From positions 1-64,000 of the forward strand of contig CACWPM010000009.1 of NCBI GenBank assembly GCA_902762795.1: DNA of 64,000 bases, in the 5' to 3' direction. Of the stretch, positions 5,521 through 57,984 are shown one piece after another. Below the pieces are notes generated by a model. It had not been told where the DNA came from and ran no database searches. It saw only the letters and a list, made by a program, of their open reading frames with translations. Origin of the DNA: Fibrobacter succinogenes. GTDB lineage: Bacteria > Fibrobacterota > Fibrobacteria > Fibrobacterales > Fibrobacteraceae. The translations under genes and the position numbers were made by a program. The stretch's first letter is position 1. The number at the start of each line of letters is the position of its first letter.

Positions 5521-5580
5521 TTCACTGGATGGGACAAAGCCCCAACCTCTTTGACTCGGTTGTTCAGCAAAAGTTCACTT

Positions 5581-5605
5581 CCTACCGCCTACTTCCTACT
5601 GCCTA
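5581..5605 (-). repeat. TAGGNNN heptad array overlapping the recF 3' end
   Basis: CCTA occurs at 5581, 5588, 5595 and 5602, exact 7-bp period (TAGG on the minus strand). The recF stop codon (5589-5591) and its last codons lie inside. Confidence 0.85.
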
Positions 5606-6875
5606 CTTCTAACTTAATCTCAACATCCGCCTTGAACGGCAAGTCTTCCGCCTGCGGGGTTGCTATCACGACCTGGCATTCCTTTTCGCGAATGAGTGAG
5701 GCTACTGCATCGCGACGGTTCACATCCAGCTCCGCAAAAATATCATCCAATAGCAAAATCGGTTTTGTCAAGTAGCGTGACGCTACATCCACGGCGGCAA
5801 AGCGCATAGCAACTGCCGCCGAGCGGCATTGCCCCTGCGAGCCGACCGAACGCATCTCGTAACCCGAGGCGCAAAGCGCCAAATCGTCGCGATGCGGCCC
5901 AGCCATCGTCAAACCTTGCAAGCGTTCCACGAATTCCAAGTCCGCAAGTTTCCGTGCAAAAGCGTTCCGTAGCATTTCCACGCTCACAACATCGTCTGTA
6001 TCGTTTGCGCATTCTGCACAAGCTGAACCCGGCGCATTTTCAGCCGCAGTTCCCGAAGCACTCCCGCTAGCATTGTAAATAGCAGCTCCATCAGCAGCTC
6101 TTGCAATTTCAGCACCGGCAGGAATTGTATCCATCATATCGTCCGACATGGATTCCGCCGCGTCAAGCGCGTCAAGCGACTTGAGGATAGAACTTTTATA
6201 AGCGCAAGTGATTTCATCCACGCCGCCCGAAAGCTTGCGATAGTATTGCGTGATAATTTCCGAGACTTCTTTCGAGAGTGCAATCCGCGCCGCCCAAAGC
6301 TTTGCGCCAAGTTCTATCAGCTGTTGCGTCAGCACACGGAACAAATCCTCGCCGCCAACAGCAGAACCGTTCTGCTTGAACTCCTTGAGCCATTTGTTAC
6401 GTTGTTGCAACACTCGCTTGTAACGACGCAACACTTGCGCATTCGCCGATGAACGATAACAAAGAATCTCGTCGAGCCAATGCCTGCGGACCTCGGGGCC
6501 GCCACGCAAAAGTTCAATGTCCGAAGGCTGCATAATCACCGCCGGGCATGTACCGAAAAATGATGTCGGAGACTTTAGCGTTTCACCGTTTTCACGCACC
6601 TCGCTTCCGCGAGAAAACACGCGAATCGCTCGCTTCCGCTCGCGCCCATTTTCTTCGAATTCTCCACGCAATACTAGCTCGTCTTGCTTCCACGTAACGA
6701 GTTCCCGCAAATCGCGTGAACGGAACGAAAAACCCTGTGCTAGCAAGTGTATCGATTCCAGAATAGTCGTCTTGCCGCAACCATTCGGTCCGCAAATGAC
6801 GTTTATGCCTGCATCGAAGTTGCAGTCTATCAAGTCAAGACTGCGGACCTTCGAAATGAACACTTTAGAAATCAA
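5589..6875 (-). CDS. recF: DNA recombination/replication repair protein RecF
   Basis: SMC-like ATPase that helps load RecA at gaps with RecO and RecR. Motifs: Walker A GPNGCGKT (29-36), ABC signature region GSQGQCRSAAVAMRFA, and Walker B PILLLDDIFAELD near the C-terminus. 428 residues is longer than the usual ~360. The excess is an Ala/Ser/Asp-rich low-complexity insert at about residues 230-290 that precedes the signature half. The protein ends EIKLEVGSRK, and VGSRK-stop is encoded by the heptad repeat. The start overlaps the stop of the upstream barrel gene by 4 bp, so it is the last gene of a four-gene minus-strand operon, away from dnaA-dnaN. Confidence 0.93.
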   Translation of the reverse strand: MISKVFISKVRSLDLIDCNFDAGINVICGPNGCGKTTILESIHLLAQGFSFRSRDLRELVTWKQDELVLRGEFEENGRERKRAIRVFSRGSEVRENGETLKSPTSFFGTCPAVIMQPSDIELLRGGPEVRRHWLDEILCYRSSANAQVLRRYKRVLQQRNKWLKEFKQNGSAVGGEDLFRVLTQQLIELGAKLWAARIALSKEVSEIITQYYRKLSGGVDEITCAYKSSILKSLDALDAAESMSDDMMDTIPAGAEIARAADGAAIYNASGSASGTAAENAPGSACAECANDTDDVVSVEMLRNAFARKLADLEFVERLQGLTMAGPHRDDLALCASGYEMRSVGSQGQCRSAAVAMRFAAVDVASRYLTKPILLLDDIFAELDVNRRDAVASLIREKECQVVIATPQAEDLPFKADVEIKLEVGSRK

Positions 6876-14652: not shown

Positions 14653-14711
14653 ACCGGACAATGCATTTATGGGCGTTGGATAAACCATCTTTTTCTGCCT
14701 GCATTTTTCTT

Positions 14712-14736
14712 CCTGCTTCCTACTTCCTACTTCCTA
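14712..14736 (-). repeat. TAGGNNN heptad array upstream of thrS
   Basis: CCTG/CCTA at 14712, 14719, 14726 and 14733, exact 7-bp period (TAGGAAG units on the minus strand). Confidence 0.8.
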
Positions 14737-14740
14737 CTTT

Positions 14741-21868: not shown

Positions 21869-21917
21869 CAGAAAATTGCGTTGCTTAGGATGGCAAAACC
21901 CTAACCACCAACCACTG

Positions 21918-21942
21918 CCTACTGTCTACTTCCTACTTCCTA
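21918..21942 (-). repeat. TAGGNNN heptad array overlapping the GH16 3' end
   Basis: CCTA/TCTA at 21918, 21925, 21932 and 21939, exact 7-bp period. The GH16 stop codon (21926-21928) and its last codons are inside. Confidence 0.85.
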
Positions 21943-22939
21943 CTCTTATATAATCCACGAGCATTTCGTTAGGAAACTGCGCTTCGTCGACTTCAAAGCC
22001 GGGCCAGTTCCCAGCGACGGCGACGTTTAGCAAGAAGAAGAATGGCTTGTGAAATTCTTCGGTGTCGCCTTTATTGCCCTCGATTAAAATCTCGTGGTAC
22101 ATGAAATCGTCGACGAACATGCGGATGTATTTTTCGTCCCAAGTGAATTTGTATGTGTGAAATTGCGTGATGTCCATTTCGTGCTTTTGGTCGCGGTAGT
22201 TGCCCGTGTTGTTGCCGTAAGTCGCGTATTCGGAACCGTTTGCCCAGTGGTTTGTTCCATAGACAATGTTTTCGCTATTGACTGCTTCGATGATGTCGAT
22301 TTCGCCGCAGGCAGGCCATCCTACTTTGTCAAAATTTTCTCCGAGCATCCAGAAGGCAGGCCAAATTCCTTTGCCTGTCGGGAGCGCGATGCGGGCTTCT
22401 ACGGTGCCGTACTTGAAAGCGAATTTGCCTTTGGTGAGCATGCGCGCTGAAGTGTACTTGGATCCTTTATAATCTTCCTTTTGCGCGCGGATGTGCAGTA
22501 CGCCTTCTTTGATGTAGGCGTTTTCTTTGCGGTCGGTGTAGTATTCCCATTCGTTGTTGCCCCAGCCGCTTGCGCCTGTGCCGATGTCGAAGCCCCATTT
22601 GTTCATGTCTATGGTTTCGCCATCGAATTCGTCGTGCCAGAGGTATTCATCGGCAGGTTCTGTGACTTTGGAGCTAGAAGATTCCGGGTCAGGCCCGGAA
22701 TGACGCGATGATGACGAAGCGAATGAAGAACTCGTCATGGCGGGCATCGACCCGCCATCAATGCTGCTGGAAGATTTCGGATCAGGTCCGGAATGACGTG
22801 ATGAGGACGATGATTCTGCGATGTTCGCTGGGGCGAATGCGTTAGACGCATTGTCAGAACATGCTGTCAAGCAAGCGATGAACCCTGCGGTGGCAATTCT
22901 TGTTGCTGCTGCACGAATTTTTTTGAACTCACAAACCAT
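21926..22939 (-). CDS. GH16 beta-glucanase lipoprotein (laminarinase type)
   Basis: 337 residues. Lipobox CLTAC (Cys27), Ser-rich linker (43-91), GH16 jelly roll (~100-335). The catalytic site GEIDIIEAV gives nucleophile Glu213 and acid/base Glu218. The extra residue in EIDIIE is the bulged form typical of endo-beta-1,3-glucanases rather than lichenases. Aromatic substrate-cleft motifs include NNEWEYYTDR, GIWPAFWMLG and PFFFLLNVAVAGNWPG. It should hydrolyse beta-glucan at the cell surface. The linker contains three palindromic repeats read in frame. The C-terminus VGSRK-stop is encoded by a heptad repeat. Confidence 0.93.
   Translation of the reverse strand: MVCEFKKIRAAATRIATAGFIACLTACSDNASNAFAPANIAESSSSSRHSGPDPKSSSSIDGGSMPAMTSSSFASSSSRHSGPDPESSSSKVTEPADEYLWHDEFDGETIDMNKWGFDIGTGASGWGNNEWEYYTDRKENAYIKEGVLHIRAQKEDYKGSKYTSARMLTKGKFAFKYGTVEARIALPTGKGIWPAFWMLGENFDKVGWPACGEIDIIEAVNSENIVYGTNHWANGSEYATYGNNTGNYRDQKHEMDITQFHTYKFTWDEKYIRMFVDDFMYHEILIEGNKGDTEEFHKPFFFLLNVAVAGNWPGFEVDEAQFPNEMLVDYIRVGSRK
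22680..22704. repeat. Palindromic repeat inside GH16 linker (copy 1)
   Basis: An 8-bp stem ATTCCGGG/CCCGGAAT with a 5-nt loop. On the coding strand it reads RHSGPDPESSS. Confidence 0.8.
22737..22758. repeat. Second type of palindrome inside GH16 linker
   Basis: An 8-bp stem ATGGCGGG/CCCGCCAT with a 6-nt loop, read in frame as DGGSMPAMT. Confidence 0.75.
22773..22798. repeat. Palindromic repeat inside GH16 linker (copy 2)
   Basis: A variant of copy 1 (ATTTCGGA/TCCGGAAT with the same TCAGG loop), read in frame as RHSGPDPKSSS. Confidence 0.8.
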
Positions 22940-27535: not shown

Positions 27536-29023
27536 TTACTTCTGTAACAGGTACAATGCGGAAAGCCAGGCGTGCAAACGTTCCCAGTCGTTGTCATCGG
27601 ATTGAACGATTGTGCTTGGACTGAGCGAAAAGACTGTTAAATTTTTAAGTTTGTTATTGCCCATGGTGAAGCCGGGAATTGTTCTGTTAAAATTTATTTT
27701 AATGTTGTTTTCTTTGTCTATATTCCCGTCTTTGGCGATTACAATATGATTCGATTTTATGAATAACGTAAAATAATGGCGCTTGCCGTCTAAAATATTT
27801 GTGCAGAAAGTGTCGTTTGTCGTATAGTAGCTGTGCTCGTGTGTGCTATCCGTCGAATCTCTGCGGTAAAAATTTGTACAAAGATTGCCCATTTGGAGGT
27901 TGATTTTTAAATCTAACCTGACATCGTTATGAAACATTTCTAATAAAGTTGTGTCGTCCACATCTAAGTTTTTTTTGTCGATGCTAATCCAGAAACCAAT
28001 TGCAAAACTGTTTTCCTGCGGTATTTCAAAATGGTCATGGGTTTTGCTTTTTACATTCATTTGGGGTTCGGTTTCGGCGATTGATTTCAAGATTTGTTTG
28101 GGCTCGTAAAGAGAATCGGTTGAGGCTACAGTGAAATTGTATGTTCCAACATCGATGTTCGGGATGACTGTCAGGTAGCGGTCGCCGTTTTTGTCGTTTT
28201 CGACTTTATAGAGCGCAAGAGTGTCTCCCTTGTCGCTTAATAGAACCGGATTTTTGACGTTCGTGTTGAGTGTAATGGGGACAATCATGGAATCGAGCGT
28301 CTTGTTGCCGTTTAGCTTTTGGGCTTCGCTCATTACGTCTTTCGATATGGAAACAGAAATTTGAGTCGGTGAAATTTCGAGCTTTTCTCCGGGCGTAAAA
28401 TCCCACTTGACGTTTCTTGTCGAGGTGTCGCGATTTGCGCCCTTGATGAGCGTGATGTTCGTGAATTCCGTCGGCGGAATTTCACTGAGTGTTGCTGTTC
28501 CTGCCTTGACGTTTTTTTCGTCAATGCCGATGCAGTTGAGCGTGCCCGTGATGCAAAGCGTGTCGCCCTTGTCGAGTGCGTAAGTGCTGAGCGAAATTTC
28601 GAGGCTTGCGTTTTTTTCGAGGCTGGTCTCGGGCTTGAGCTTTTGCGTGTTTGTTTTGTCGTCTTCGATGGTAATTGTCTGGTAGCCGGATTGCGTACGT
28701 TCCGTGTTGCTGATCTGCAGCGCGTAGTCACCGGCGGATACGCTGTCTATCGTGTACTTGCCCGCGTCATCAGTGGTTGCGGTCTTGATGGGCGCCATGC
28801 GGGCGGCAATGTGGGTTGAAGAAATGAGGTTCACCTTTGCGCTGGGGACTGGCTTTCCATTTTCGTTCTTGACGATTCCCTCGATTCTTGCGATTGTTGT
28901 GCCGGATTCGGTTTCGGTAAGTACGCCGGCATGGTTCTCGTCGGAACAGGCGGTGAAATATGTGCAAAATATCGCTGCAAGGGCGAAATTCCCCACGATT
29001 TTTAAAGTGTTGAAGTTCATCAT
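27536..29023 (-). CDS. Surface lipoprotein with carboxypeptidase-regulatory and LamG-like domains
   Basis: 495 residues. The signal peptide ends with lipobox FTAC (SDENH after the Cys). Residues ~48-120 form a carboxypeptidase-regulatory-like Ig fold (IEGIVKNENGKPVPSAKVNL then DDAGKYTIDSVSAGDYALQI). A middle region of beta strands follows, and a C-terminal ~170-residue concanavalin/LamG-like sandwich (FAIGFWISIDKKNL, GKRHYFTLFIKSNHIVIAKDG, then a final WERLHAWLSALYLL). The start overlaps the stop of the DUF4423 regulator by 4 bp, so the two are translationally coupled. It is probably a surface-binding protein whose expression follows that regulator. Confidence 0.72.
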   Translation of the reverse strand: MMNFNTLKIVGNFALAAIFCTYFTACSDENHAGVLTETESGTTIARIEGIVKNENGKPVPSAKVNLISSTHIAARMAPIKTATTDDAGKYTIDSVSAGDYALQISNTERTQSGYQTITIEDDKTNTQKLKPETSLEKNASLEISLSTYALDKGDTLCITGTLNCIGIDEKNVKAGTATLSEIPPTEFTNITLIKGANRDTSTRNVKWDFTPGEKLEISPTQISVSISKDVMSEAQKLNGNKTLDSMIVPITLNTNVKNPVLLSDKGDTLALYKVENDKNGDRYLTVIPNIDVGTYNFTVASTDSLYEPKQILKSIAETEPQMNVKSKTHDHFEIPQENSFAIGFWISIDKKNLDVDDTTLLEMFHNDVRLDLKINLQMGNLCTNFYRRDSTDSTHEHSYYTTNDTFCTNILDGKRHYFTLFIKSNHIVIAKDGNIDKENNIKINFNRTIPGFTMGNNKLKNLTVFSLSPSTIVQSDDNDWERLHAWLSALYLLQK

Positions 29024-29859
29024 GCTTTCACCTCCGGATCGAGGTTTGAGAACAGGTGCAGGTTCATTTGATAAACGCCGCTAGCTTTTTCGTTGTCTTC
29101 GCTGATGATGCGTCTTGCCTTGGTCTTGAATTCCTGGAGCTCGGCTTCAAGTTTTTGGTAGGCTGTATCTGAGATGCTGAACGTGAGTGTGCTCATGACG
29201 GTGGGCATCTTGGGGCGTGTGATGAGTGCCTGCTTTGAAAGTTCAAAACATTGTAATTGATATTGTTTGATCAGTTCTGCGTTGTTGTAAGGGCCGCTGG
29301 ATATGGATTCCCTCGTGGGTTTCCAAAATCCCTGTTCGTTCTTGCGTGCAAGTCCGAGCTTTTCTAGAAGGGCTAGCGAGTCCTTGAGCTTCCCGAGCGG
29401 AACTTTCGGAAAGATTCTTTTTTGTACAGGAGTCAAGTCGTCTGTTACGTCCATAGCGTCAAGAATAGCGAACATGGCGCTATGGTACCAATGGTTGTAA
29501 TATTCGTAAGTGTTCGAATCGAGGATGTGTTGCGGGTTTGGATGCAGGTGTAAAAGTTCTTCCATGGCGGAACTGCGGACCGAATCCGTCTTTGCCTGGT
29601 CGAGTTTGACCATGGTCTCGAAGTATTTTGCGGCTTTTTTGTTGAGGCCAAGGACTTCGATGAATTTCGCTGTCATGCGGGGGCTGACTTTTTTCCCTCT
29701 GAGAACATCGGCAAAATAACTTCGCGTCTTGGGAAGGCCTAGCATGTTGCAAATCCCGGTACGGGTGAACTCAGGGTCGGTCTGGACCCTGGCTGCCTGG
29801 TATTCTTCCAAGTACTTGCGAAAGTGCGTAAATTGATAAATGTCGATATAGTTTTCCAC
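29020..29859 (-). CDS. TIGR02147/DUF4423-family putative transcriptional regulator
   Basis: Fibrobacter paralogous family TIGR02147. Visible: IDIYQFTHFRKYLEEYQAAR at the N-terminus, a helix-turn-helix-like region with the family pattern RSYFADVLRGKKVSPR, LGLNKKAAKYFETMVKLDQA, and the DUF4423 block YEYYNHWYHSAMFAILDAM. About 279 residues from the GTG at 29859, which matches the usual family start just before the DIYQFTHFRKYL block. An in-frame ATG at 29916 would add 19 hydrophobic residues and has no RBS. AGGAG lies very close to the GTG, so the start is uncertain. Probably a DNA-binding regulator of the coupled lipoprotein or of itself. Confidence 0.75.
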   Translation of the reverse strand: MENYIDIYQFTHFRKYLEEYQAARVQTDPEFTRTGICNMLGLPKTRSYFADVLRGKKVSPRMTAKFIEVLGLNKKAAKYFETMVKLDQAKTDSVRSSAMEELLHLHPNPQHILDSNTYEYYNHWYHSAMFAILDAMDVTDDLTPVQKRIFPKVPLGKLKDSLALLEKLGLARKNEQGFWKPTRESISSGPYNNAELIKQYQLQCFELSKQALITRPKMPTVMSTLTFSISDTAYQKLEAELQEFKTKARRIISEDNEKASGVYQMNLHLFSNLDPEVKA

Positions 29860-29878
29860 GACTCCTAATATAATATTT

Positions 29879-29898
29879 GTGAGAACTATTGTGAGAAC
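29879..29898. promoter_or_regulatory. Direct-repeat operator candidate upstream of the DUF4423 regulator
   Basis: GTGAGAAC is repeated at 29879-29886 and 29891-29898, a 12-bp period, 20 bases before the proposed GTG start and next to a TATTATATT stretch. A direct repeat here could be an autoregulatory site. Confidence 0.4.
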
Positions 29899-29959
29899 AT
29901 TTTTTATTATCTCCATGAAAATGTGATTTCTATCGTGGAAAGCTGAAAAATGCGGAGGC

Positions 29960-30347
29960 GCACCTATGCAGGTATGTTTATTGAGGCGTACCTATAAAAG
30001 TGTCGTTTTACCTTTATTTATAGGTGCTATTATGGAATTTAGAGTGTGAAATAGTCTAAACATTGCGGGTGGGTACCTATAAATTTTGCAAAATGGTCGA
30101 TTTATAGGTATTCAATACCCAGATTTTGAATAAACTATGCAAATTACGGCTGGAAAATCGCCAGTAGGTACCTATAAAAATGATGTTTTCCCTCTGTTTA
30201 TAGGTACTGCTAGGAAAAATTGAACGTAAAAAGTTCTAAAAAGCGCGAATGAGTACCTATAAATCCTAAAAAAAGAGCGTCTTATAGGTACGCCTGGGCA
30301 AAAATGCACTTTAAAAGTACCAAAGAATTGATTTTGTGTTACTTTGA
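29960..30347. repeat. Array of four inverted-repeat units with 180-bp higher-order period
   Basis: Each unit has a left arm ACCTATA and a right arm TATAGGT with 21-22 bases between them. Left arms start at 29990, 30075, 30170 and 30255; right arms at 30019, 30103, 30199 and 30283. Units 1-2 are repeated as units 3-4 with a period of exactly 180 bp (left arms), and the whole 180-bp segment is about two-thirds identical between copies. Each unit would form a ~10-bp A/T-rich hairpin. A half-size palindrome (ACCTAT..AGGTAT) precedes the array at 29962. Not CRISPR-like: no constant spacer size and no cas genes. Confidence 0.75.
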
Positions 30348-30511: not shown

Positions 30512-30590
30512 TGTGTGCGGGACGCTCGCCTTGGAGCATACTCGCCATTTGAGGTCGTCCCTCACTTCGTTCGAGGATGACTCCGTCCTT

Positions 30591-30615
30591 CCTACCGCCT
30601 ACTTCCTACTGCCTA
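30591..30615 (-). repeat. TAGGNNN heptad array
   Basis: CCTA at 30591, 30598, 30605 and 30612, exact 7-bp period, nearly the same sequence as the recF array. Confidence 0.85.
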
Positions 30616-30713
30616 CTATTTACTAACCACTGACCATTTCTTATTTTTTTATTGCATTTGGAAAATGGTGCGTGCCTGATGCGAAAAACAGCTTTTTCCG
30701 AAAGCTCCCACTG

Positions 30714-30745
30714 CCTACTTCTTACTTCCTACTTCCTACTTCCTA
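30714..30745 (-). repeat. TAGGNNN heptad array just before the nuo promoter region
   Basis: CCTA/CTTA at 30714, 30721, 30728, 30735 and 30742, exact 7-bp period, ending 12 bases before the candidate -10 of nuoB. Confidence 0.85.
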
Positions 30746-30791: not shown

Positions 30792-31427
30792 ATGGGTAAT
30801 GAGGCAGAAAAGCCGAATATCATTACGTCCTCGCTTGACTTTTTGGTCAACTGGGGGCGCTCTAATTCGTTGTGGCCGTTCCCTTACGGTACGGCTTGTT
30901 GTGCAATTGAATTCATGAGTACGGAAGTGGGTCGTTACGACCTTTCACGTATCGGTTCTGAATATGTGCGTTTTACGCCGCGTCAGTCCGATGTGCTGCT
31001 TGTTGCAGGTACGATTACTTACAAACAGGCTCCGATTTTAAAGCGCATCTACGAACAGATGGCTGAACCCCGCTGGGTGATTGCCATGGGTGCATGCGCA
31101 AGCTCTGGTGGTTTCTATGACTGCTACTGCACGGTGCCCGGTATCGACCACATTATCCCGGTGGATGTGTATATCGGCGGTTGTCCTCCGCGTCCGGAAG
31201 CCTTCTTCGATGCAATGTTTGACTTGCAGAAGAAGGTTAAAGATGAATCCTTCATGAAGCAGCGTGCCGAAAGCATCAAGGACCAGCTTGAAATGATCAA
31301 GGCGAAGACTGCCGAAGCCAAGCGTGAAACCGCTGCTTGCGTTCGCGAAAAGATTGTGGACGTGAAGGATTTCATGAAAGAAAAACAACAAGATTTTGTA
31401 AAGAAAGCCCAGTTCTGGAAGGAGTAG
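30792..31427 (+). CDS. nuoB: NADH-quinone oxidoreductase subunit B
   Basis: Peripheral-arm subunit that holds cluster N2, the last Fe-S cluster before quinone. Cys ligands are visible: the CC pair in GTACCAIEFMS, the Cys in GACASSGGFYDCYC and the Cys in YIGGCPPRPEAF. Core length matches the family. An extra C-terminal tail of ~45 residues (from DESFMKQRAESIKDQLEM) is charged and helical, probably a coiled coil. GAGGTAACTCCT precedes the ATG. First gene of a 13-gene operon that lacks nuoA. Confidence 0.96.
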   Translation: MGNEAEKPNIITSSLDFLVNWGRSNSLWPFPYGTACCAIEFMSTEVGRYDLSRIGSEYVRFTPRQSDVLLVAGTITYKQAPILKRIYEQMAEPRWVIAMGACASSGGFYDCYCTVPGIDHIIPVDVYIGGCPPRPEAFFDAMFDLQKKVKDESFMKQRAESIKDQLEMIKAKTAEAKRETAACVREKIVDVKDFMKEKQQDFVKKAQFWKE

Positions 31428-45041: not shown

Positions 45042-45073
45042 TAGGTTGTAGGTATTAGGTTTTAGGGATTAGG
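45042..45073 (+). repeat. TAGGNNN heptad array after nuoN
   Basis: TAGG at 45042, 45049, 45056, 45063 and 45070, exact 7-bp period, starting 2 bases after the nuoN stop. Confidence 0.88.
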
Positions 45074-47354: not shown

Positions 47355-47462
47355 GTTGTAGGTGTTAGGGCTTAGGTATTCTTCCTACCGCCAACAGTTT
47401 ACTTCCAATTTCTTGCTTCTTACATACCACTGCCTACAGTCTACTGCCTACGGTCTACCGCC
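47352..47462. repeat. Facing heptad arrays after ispF
   Basis: Plus-strand TAGG at 47352 (the ispF stop), 47359, 47366 and 47373, exact 7-bp period. From about 47383 to 47462 the opposite orientation appears (minus-strand TAGGCAG and TAGACNG units). Confidence 0.82.
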
Positions 47463-47536
47463 TCGTTGTCCCCTGTTCAACACGACTGGGGCTCTCTTGT
47501 TTTTAGGGGCTGATTTTACCTAGCTTTTTTCTATAT

Positions 47537-54796: not shown

Positions 54797-55903
54797 GTTA
54801 AGATTTATGGAACTGTGGATCCTGAAATGGCGGCCCATGAATACGTTTATTCGTTCGAACTGACGGATTATTATGGAGAAACAAAGACTGTAATGGGCAA
54901 GATTAATGTTGTGCGTGAATTGAGCAGCTCTAGCGTTGCGGCATCTTCGAGCTCAGAGGTTGCTTCTTCAAGCTCTGCAGAGGTTCAGTCTTCTAGCAGT
55001 TCTGTACAGTCCAGCAGCTCTGTTGTGCAGTCCAGCTCCAGCGTTGCGGCATCTTCGAGCTCGGAGGTTGCTTCTTCAAGCTCTGCAGAGGTCCTGTCTT
55101 CTAGCAGTTCTGCACAGTCTAGCAGCTCTGTTGGGCAGTCAAGCTCCAGCGTTGTGGTATCTTCGAGCTCGGAGGCGGCATCTTCAAGTTCCGCGAAGTC
55201 CAGCAGCTCTGTTGTGCAGTCAAGCTCCAGCGTTGTGGTATCTTCAAGTTCTGTAGCATCTTCGAGTTCCGCGAAGTCCAGCAGCTCTGCCGTGCAGTCC
55301 AGCTCTAGCGTTGTGGCATCTTCGAGCTCAGAGGTTGCTTCTTCAAGCTCTGCAGAGGTCCTGTCTTCTAGCAGTTCTGCACAGTCCAGCAGCTCTGTTG
55401 TGCAGTCAAGCTCTAGCGTTGCGGCATCTTCGAGTTCGGAGGCGGCATCTTCAAGTTCCGCGAAGTCCAGCAGTTCTGTTGTGCAGTCAAGCTCCAGCGT
55501 TGTGGTATCTTCAAGTTCTGTAGCATCTTCGAGTTCCGCGAAGTCTAGTAGTTCTGTAAAACAGTCTAGCTCTAGCGAGAAGTCCAGCAGCTCTGAGGCA
55601 AAGTCTTCTAGCTCCAGCACGAAGGTCGAATCTTCTTCGAGCGAAATGACCACTAAGATCATGACTGTGGCAATGAACGGCATCAAGTTTGGCAATGCGA
55701 ACAATGCGCTGACGGTTGCTTTGCCGACATCTTCGATGGTGCGTGTGCAAGTGTTCGACTTGACGGGACATTTGGTGGAATCGTTTGCAGAGCCCGTCAA
55801 TGGTTCCAAGAGTTTTAGCCTCGCTCATTTGAACAGGGGTAATTACCTTGTGCGTATCGAAAGCAACAGCGTGGCTCGTACCGCTCGAATCTCTGTGAAG
55901 TAA
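54797..55903 (+). CDS. Same protein, second part: rest of repeat 5, Ser-rich linker and C-terminal sorting-like domain
   Basis: In the same frame as the preceding ORF, right after its TAA. It completes the fifth Ig-like repeat (VDPEMAAHEYVYSFELTD), then has a ~240-residue linker of SSSS blocks separated by short V/A/E/K/Q words, then ~75 residues that resemble a Por/type IX-type C-terminal domain (MVRVQVFDLTGHLVESF, LNRGNYLVRIESNSVARTAR). Together the two parts would make an 838-codon protein. A GTG at 54815 could start this part alone, but it would then lack a signal peptide. Either a nonsense mutation, a sequencing error or programmed readthrough. Confidence 0.7.
   Translation, partial: VKIYGTVDPEMAAHEYVYSFELTDYYGETKTVMGKINVVRELSSSSVAASSSSEVASSSSAEVQSSSSSVQSSSSVVQSSSSVAASSSSEVASSSSAEVLSSSSSAQSSSSVGQSSSSVVVSSSSEAASSSSAKSSSSVVQSSSSVVVSSSSVASSSSAKSSSSAVQSSSSVVASSSSEVASSSSAEVLSSSSSAQSSSSVVQSSSSVAASSSSEAASSSSAKSSSSVVQSSSSVVVSSSSVASSSSAKSSSSVKQSSSSEKSSSSEAKSSSSSTKVESSSSEMTTKIMTVAMNGIKFGNANNALTVALPTSSMVRVQVFDLTGHLVESFAEPVNGSKSFSLAHLNRGNYLVRIESNSVARTARISVK
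54916..55640 (+). repeat. Ser-linker DNA repeats
   Basis: Serine codons alternate TCT/TCG/TCA/AGC/AGT, but blocks of 60-130 bp recur nearly unchanged. An example is the block from GAGGTTGCTTCTTCAAGCTC to the next CAGTC, at about 54955-55030, 55066-55140 and 55330-55410. This points to recent segmental duplication within the linker. Confidence 0.75.
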
Positions 55904-57837: not shown

Positions 57838-57906
57838 AGAGCGACAAATTTAGTTATTTATGGCGGGTTTCGCAAGACTTGCGTTTTTGCTGAAAATCTT
57901 ACTTTT

Positions 57907-57939
57907 TAGGTGTTAGGGGTTAGGTATTAGGGATTAGGT
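57907..57939 (+). repeat. TAGGNNN heptad array
   Basis: TAGG at 57907, 57914, 57921, 57928 and 57935, exact 7-bp period, in the region upstream of the XPB start. Confidence 0.88.
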
Positions 57940-57984
57940 AAATAATCGTGGCTTCGCTGCTTTTAAAAGGACGAGCGTAGCTCG

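Follow-up and report, generated by a model that had tools for sequence, protein, structure and literature searches.

What is the array of short palindromes that lies between two divergent genes of Fibrobacter succinogenes, and to what does it belong? The window (the whole 64,000-nt stretch analysed here, positions 1 to 64,000 of contig CACWPM010000009.1 in assembly GCA_902762795.1) holds this array at 29989-30290, with a TIGR02147/DUF4423 gene on one side and nuoB on the other. We put at roughly 0.7 the probability that it is one of the scattered copies of a binding-site array cognate to a PD-(D/E)XK-type protein, the gene for which lies on contig C37 of the same genome, outside the window. 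The array and its units, none of which is assigned to a strand, are as follows.

29989-30290: whole array, one among about 15 dispersed arrays in the genome with the same arms
29990-30025: palindromic unit 1, arms ACCTATAA (29990-29997) and TTATAGGT (30018-30025)
30075-30109: palindromic unit 2, arms at 30075-30082 and 30102-30109
30170-30205: palindromic unit 3, arms at 30170-30177 and 30198-30205
30255-30289: palindromic unit 4, arms at 30255-30262 and 30282-30289

The sequence-only reading of this locus had described four inverted-repeat units with left-arm spacings of 85, 95 and 85 bp; both positions and spacings are borne out, the spacings correspond to 8, 9 and 8 helical turns, and the paired-arm pattern has no match in 100 dinucleotide shuffles of the window. 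Its arms, ACCTATA and TATAGGT, are present as stated and fall short of the true ones, which read (G)TACCTATAAA ... TTTATAGGTA(C) in units 35-36 bp long. It was also right that units 1-2 recur 180 bp further on as units 3-4 and that the array contains no plausible open reading frame (ORF); the two pairs of units are 72% identical over 123 nt.

A search for the unit, ACCTATAA-N19/20-TTATAGGT, across this 3.93-Mb, rumen-type Fibrobacter genome (G000) returned 52 copies, and a mirrored control returned none. These copies group into about 15 arrays of 3-4 units each, and all examined arrays of this arm type are intergenic; on an ORF-based reading of gene layout, the flanking genes are convergent at about 5 of them, divergent at 2 and co-directional at 8. 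Nine of the arrays are paralogues of one another, at roughly 69-87% identity across some 300 bp, and retain the order of their units. Presence at unrelated sites, in the manner of an insertion element, is what the sequence-only reading had named as telling against its proposals, and the roughly 15 dispersed arrays are just that. The genome also carries a second arm type, TACGTAC, with 53 units and a nuclease gene of its own that has arrays on both sides, and a third, GCGGTGA, with 6 units. The TACGTAC family is found at L404 (G000:C23:33000-40000), where the gene for the C23 nuclease occupies L404:2783-3613, and at L037 and L042, and arrays of this type also adjoin two TIGR02147 genes.

An all-against-all comparison of the ORFs that flank arrays identified a protein of about 270 aa, whose gene lies at a distance of 24-206 bp from an array in six genome sources, which represent five distinct genomes and two phyla. 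In the genome of the window its gene lies on contig C37 (L024:5430-6251) beside one array. Neither Pfam nor NCBIfam holds a family that matches the full-length protein, and a PDB sequence search gave no match. Over its C-terminal 110 or so residues it matches the PADLOC PDC-S68 nuclease domain (E about 1e-24 to 1e-26), and in a clostridial member the C-terminal part also matches the PADLOC HEAT_CxxC PD-(D/E)XK models. In an AlphaFold2 model (pLDDT 88.5) the N-terminal part, which is variable, consists of a helix, a beta-hairpin and then a long helix, and precedes a restriction-endonuclease-like core. Residues E170, E216 and H217 are invariant in 54 family sequences and D201 is nearly so. On the strength of the predicted core fold (with weak scores), the PADLOC domain match and the conservation of E170, D201 and E216, we class the partner protein as PD-(D/E)XK-like.

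The pairing of this protein with arrays is well supported by sequence comparison. In a blind search for palindromes with identical arms in the 1.2-kb flanks of family genes from Fibrobacter and Clostridia, at least two were found at 59 of 83 distinct genes and at least three at 46 of the 83. Shuffled flanks never held more than one such palindrome, and random windows gave identical-arm pairs in one of 116 cases; the flanks of TIGR02147 genes were positive in 3 of 29 cases, all three with arms of the nuclease-array system. Arrays lay upstream of the family gene in 42 cases, on both sides in 10 and downstream in 7, and those flanking a gene on both sides were direct repeats wherever they were compared. 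The arm types include ACCTATAA, TACGTAC, TACATAC, GGGCGTA, CATATAA, GACTAAA, GCGGTGA, TTTACGT, GACTATA and TTGGAGC. The seven closest relatives of the nuclease (E<1e-140) occur in genomes with 8-52 units of the window type (G000 52, G056 45, G019 35, G086 28, G072 21, G040 12, G023 8). Across the family, arm type follows the protein tree: 19 arm types are distributed over it with 21 changes, where the minimum is 18 and shuffling gives 39.8 (none of 200 shuffles was as low). One comparison points to the part of the protein concerned. The protein at L373 (G023, arms ACCTATAA) is 84% identical to those at L381 and L382 (G024 and G073, arms CATATAA), and 35 of the 39 shared differences fall in residues 1-51, which amounts to a natural exchange of the N-terminal part (about 51 residues) together with the arm type.

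How the sites are likely to be read is indicated by their constraint and spacing. In orthologous arrays none of 496 arm positions has changed, against about 13% in loops and intervals; one of these comparisons repeats a genome, which does not affect the contrast between arms and the rest. Selection on the paired arms, which the sequence-only reading had suspected, is supported by these comparisons. In ACCYATAA arrays of Fibrobacter, unit spacings fall at multiples of 10.5 bp (R=0.90, n=82), and in other arm types, with spacings of 41-243 bp, they do likewise (R=0.83, n=70, peak 10.5); the counts are not independent, many arrays being related, but the phasing is seen again in arm types that are separate and across phyla. 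The two arms vary independently of each other at half-site position 4, such that 12 of 35 units would carry a C.A mismatch as RNA. We take the sites to be read as DNA, not RNA, because their spacing follows the DNA helix and their arms vary independently, and the latter suggests that they are not recognised as folded single-stranded palindromes. A set of four hairpins acting as structured small RNAs had been among the earlier suggestions. Single units do give better folds than their shuffled versions (z -2.3 to -5.5), as would be expected of any inverted repeat; this explanation is nonetheless very improbable in view of the mismatches, the helical phasing of the spacing and the lack of any Rfam match to the array, and we rejected it.

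The occurrence of both components is patchy. The window-type unit is present in 18-19 of 111 Fibrobacteraceae genomes and absent from most, with arms spelled ACCYATAA in some species; phased arrays were also found in Clostridia and Lachnospiraceae in a scan of public genomes, with 15-105 units per whole genome. Matches to the protein family occur in 54 of the 111 Fibrobacteraceae genomes (5 in that of the window, and a few of all these to the nuclease domain only). The order to which a Lachnospiraceae member belongs was covered by 196 genomes, of which 36 gave matches, as many as 13 in one genome with partial matches included; a thinner sample of the phylum of that member gave 6 of 399 at a strict threshold. 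Two records are not independent evidence, although the comparisons of array-flanking ORFs and of orthologous arrays list them separately: RUG14562/G118 behaves as the same assembly as G086, with identical coordinates, and the Horse_feces16 protein is the same as that of G047. A phage origin was considered and rejected: among the matches listed, viral contigs hold isolated single units of the kind expected by chance, and these contigs match the partner protein in its nuclease domain only, as do plasmids. One full-length match lies in a 4.2-kb faecal record labelled 'Bacteriophage sp.'.

At the locus of the window an array with the same spacing is found in G000, G072 and G086 and is absent from G018, G022, G025, G040, G060, G063, G064, G088 and others. 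At a second locus, L022, about ten relatives lack the array between the same convergent genes. Homology between arrays fades some 20-60 bp beyond the outer units, and the intergenic DNA at array-free sites is much changed. One genome, G035, has arrays, and a close relative of the cognate nuclease was not detected in it. Among its intact-length copies 4 of 128 arm positions are mutated, as against 1 of 464 in nuclease-bearing genomes, and two of its arrays are down to one unit; arm decay has begun there, an observation that is suggestive only, given the small numbers. As to minor features of these loci, a lone degenerate half-site (ACCTATGC) lies at 29962-29974, 28 bp ahead of unit 1, and is partly retained in G072 and G086 (ACTTATGC). 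Another dispersed intergenic repeat (GTCATCCTGAGTCCGTAAGGACGAAGGATCC...) occupies the site orthologous to L022 in three relatives (L495, L506 and L509, in G063, G064 and G022, respectively).

These distributions also bear on the first proposal made for the array, that of a multi-site operator. The neighbouring genes, both of which we place outside the system, are:

29020-29916, minus strand: TIGR02147/DUF4423 gene, likely start at 29859
30792-31427, plus strand: nuoB, which opens the NADH dehydrogenase operon, across the array from the regulator

A position between two divergent genes is what would be expected of an operator for the TIGR02147 regulator or the nuo operon. However, there are 15 arrays, several of them between convergent genes; of the TIGR02147 genes that the genome carries, about 40 in all, that of the window alone adjoins an array of this arm type; and relatives have the same two genes without an array, with a DUF4423 protein 93-96% identical. 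The expectation that the arms would accompany TIGR02147 genes across loci and genomes did not hold up. On this genome-wide distribution, and with the relatives that lack the array, we rejected an operator of the DUF4423 gene, and we regard one for either neighbour as scarcely credible. Orthologues of the regulator in the window are retained in most Fibrobacter genomes, and its gene overlaps the start of the next, lipoprotein-like gene (27536-29916).

We infer how the protein might bind, how arrays might spread and what the cell might gain along the following lines. A symmetric dimer, or a pair of dimers, would bind each 35-36-bp unit in double-stranded form, with the N-terminal helix and beta-hairpin reading the half-sites ACCTATAA. 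Placement of units on one face of the helix would allow several dimers to bind cooperatively, and an array upstream of the nuclease's own gene may provide autoregulation. With less certainty, the nuclease domain could promote the copying of arrays into new intergenic sites, and the arrays may be non-autonomous elements that depend on a chromosomal enzyme acting in trans, one gene for each array type, much as RAYT/TnpA-REP is proposed to serve REP/BIME elements. If the nuclease does spread arrays in trans, the array in the window would therefore be a passenger between two unrelated genes.

Several observations weigh against this account. The fold neighbours of the model (Bax1 nuclease, DrdV, R2 endonuclease and MunI) are all weak, with a best E of 0.014, and no structure in the PDB matches the N-terminal part by itself. 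The canonical lysine of the (D/E)XK motif is replaced in the partner protein by E-H, which leaves its predicted activity uncertain; members of the PD-(D/E)XK superfamily with other residues in place of the lysine do exist. No array was detected at 24 of the 83 family genes, some of which are at contig ends and others of which may have been missed by the detector, and six genomes (G024, G035, G065, G068, G089 and G090) hold a few units with no cognate gene detected. We found no target-site duplication or sharp element end, either at the L022 locus or in the alignment of nine copies. Lastly, the constraint on arms at distant sites exceeds what a purely selfish passenger would need. Such strong constraint suggests some use or cost for each site, and two further explanations, one architectural and one involving titration, are therefore retained. 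Both share the binding part with our preferred model, and the probabilities of the readings do not sum to one.

One scenario, which we consider unlikely and yet the stronger of the two, is that a domesticated and perhaps inactive nuclease occupies the phased arrays at some 15 loci and in this way bridges or bends the chromosome or insulates neighbouring genes, with dispersal being ancient and selection now keeping each site. The perfect retention of arms at each orthologous site would fit well with such a role, as would the helical phasing, the intergenic position of the arrays and the near absence of the protein from phage and plasmid records. It is harder to reconcile with an occurrence that is patchy even between close species, with the many paralogues per genome that have separate arrays, or with the conservation of the acidic catalytic residues. 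We give still less credit to the possibility that an autoregulated toxic or defensive nuclease is titrated by the dispersed arrays and released upon array loss or infection. Here one could point to the resemblance of the C-terminal domain to the candidate defence proteins PDC-S68 and HEAT_CxxC PD-(D/E)XK in PADLOC, to the many diversified paralogues, to the exchange of the N-terminal specificity segment as a module and to the mostly upstream position of the arrays; however, a partner immunity gene common to array flanks was not found, and G035 holds arrays without the cognate gene.

There is precedent for dispersed palindromes with a cognate chromosomal gene. In REPtrons, which combine REP, BIME or REPIN palindromes with a RAYT (TnpA-REP) gene, intergenic palindromes occur at many loci and the cognate gene lies beside its own type; there are several gene/palindrome pairs per genome, palindromes are conserved while linkers drift, and repeat number correlates with gene presence (PMC8266576, PMC3116915). 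The nuclease genes similarly adjoin their own palindrome types, which are dispersed in intergenic DNA. The two systems nevertheless differ in that: (i) the enzyme is PD-(D/E)XK-like and has no Y1 (HUH) match in Pfam, NCBIfam or PHROG; (ii) there is no GTAG/CGTC tag, none being shared by the arm types ACCTATAA, TACGTAC, GCGGTGA, GGGCGTA and others; (iii) the half-sites are separated, 35-36 bp across, with free loops; (iv) arrays of 3-6 units are locked to whole helical turns and (v) the independence of the arms suggests double-stranded recognition rather than that of folded single strands. We have not filed the system under REPtrons because two defining features, the HUH enzyme and the GTAG tag, fail. 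As for the PADLOC models, the likeness lies in the nuclease domain; PDC-S68 has about 1200 positions and the other is a HEAT-repeat protein, whereas the partner has about 270 aa, an N-terminus of its own and cognate arrays. Like CRISPR arrays, ours repeat a short constant motif at regular intervals, and the DNA in between is variable. In contrast to CRISPR, however, loop and interval both vary, spacing goes by helical turns and not by one spacer length, and there are about 15 dispersed copies; identical direct repeats with unique spacers are lacking, and no cas genes are among the common neighbours of the array flanks, in agreement with the sequence-only reading.

None of the curated families searched holds the full-length protein, and in the literature searched we found no paper linking palindromic arrays to such a nuclease, though other literature may hold one; interspaced repeats that lack an explanation are mentioned, in general terms, in the SPADE paper (PMC6344855). 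By these comparisons, the pairing of a chromosomal nuclease with a cognate array looks like an unrecognised two-part genetic system. The broader proposal, which is tentative and in our estimation falls just short of an even chance, is of a dispersed system of a class unrecognised so far, in which chromosomal PD-(D/E)XK enzymes, their N-terminal reader being exchangeable, recognise helically phased multi-palindrome arrays in double-stranded form and spread them, with the arrays keeping the enzymes in balance in return; there would be parallel array families per genome and a range of at least two phyla. If true, the REP/RAYT arrangement would have been invented a second time, independently, with another class of enzyme and a striking rule of helical phasing. 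The system would supply natural enzyme/site pairs by the dozen from which to work out how DNA is read by a protein segment without a match among solved structures, would account for one class of intergenic palindrome seen in bacteria of the rumen and gut and would make the cellular role of such palindrome populations testable in cultured Fibrobacter and Lachnospiraceae.

Two other kinds of repeat were seen in the window. A tandem-repeat search of it turned up a heptanucleotide repeat, (C)TACTTCCTACTGCCTA or the complement of this, that forms a dispersed intergenic family with members at the following sites.

5577-5609, 14690-14739, 21914-21944, 30588-30617, 30706-30745, 45042-45073, 47421-47463 and 57906-57940, strand not stated: heptanucleotide repeat (C)TACTTCCTACTGCCTA

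The other, at 54925-55577, consists of long serine-codon-rich tandem repeats with periods of 108, 78-81 and 267 bp and is probably a linker in a secreted protein.
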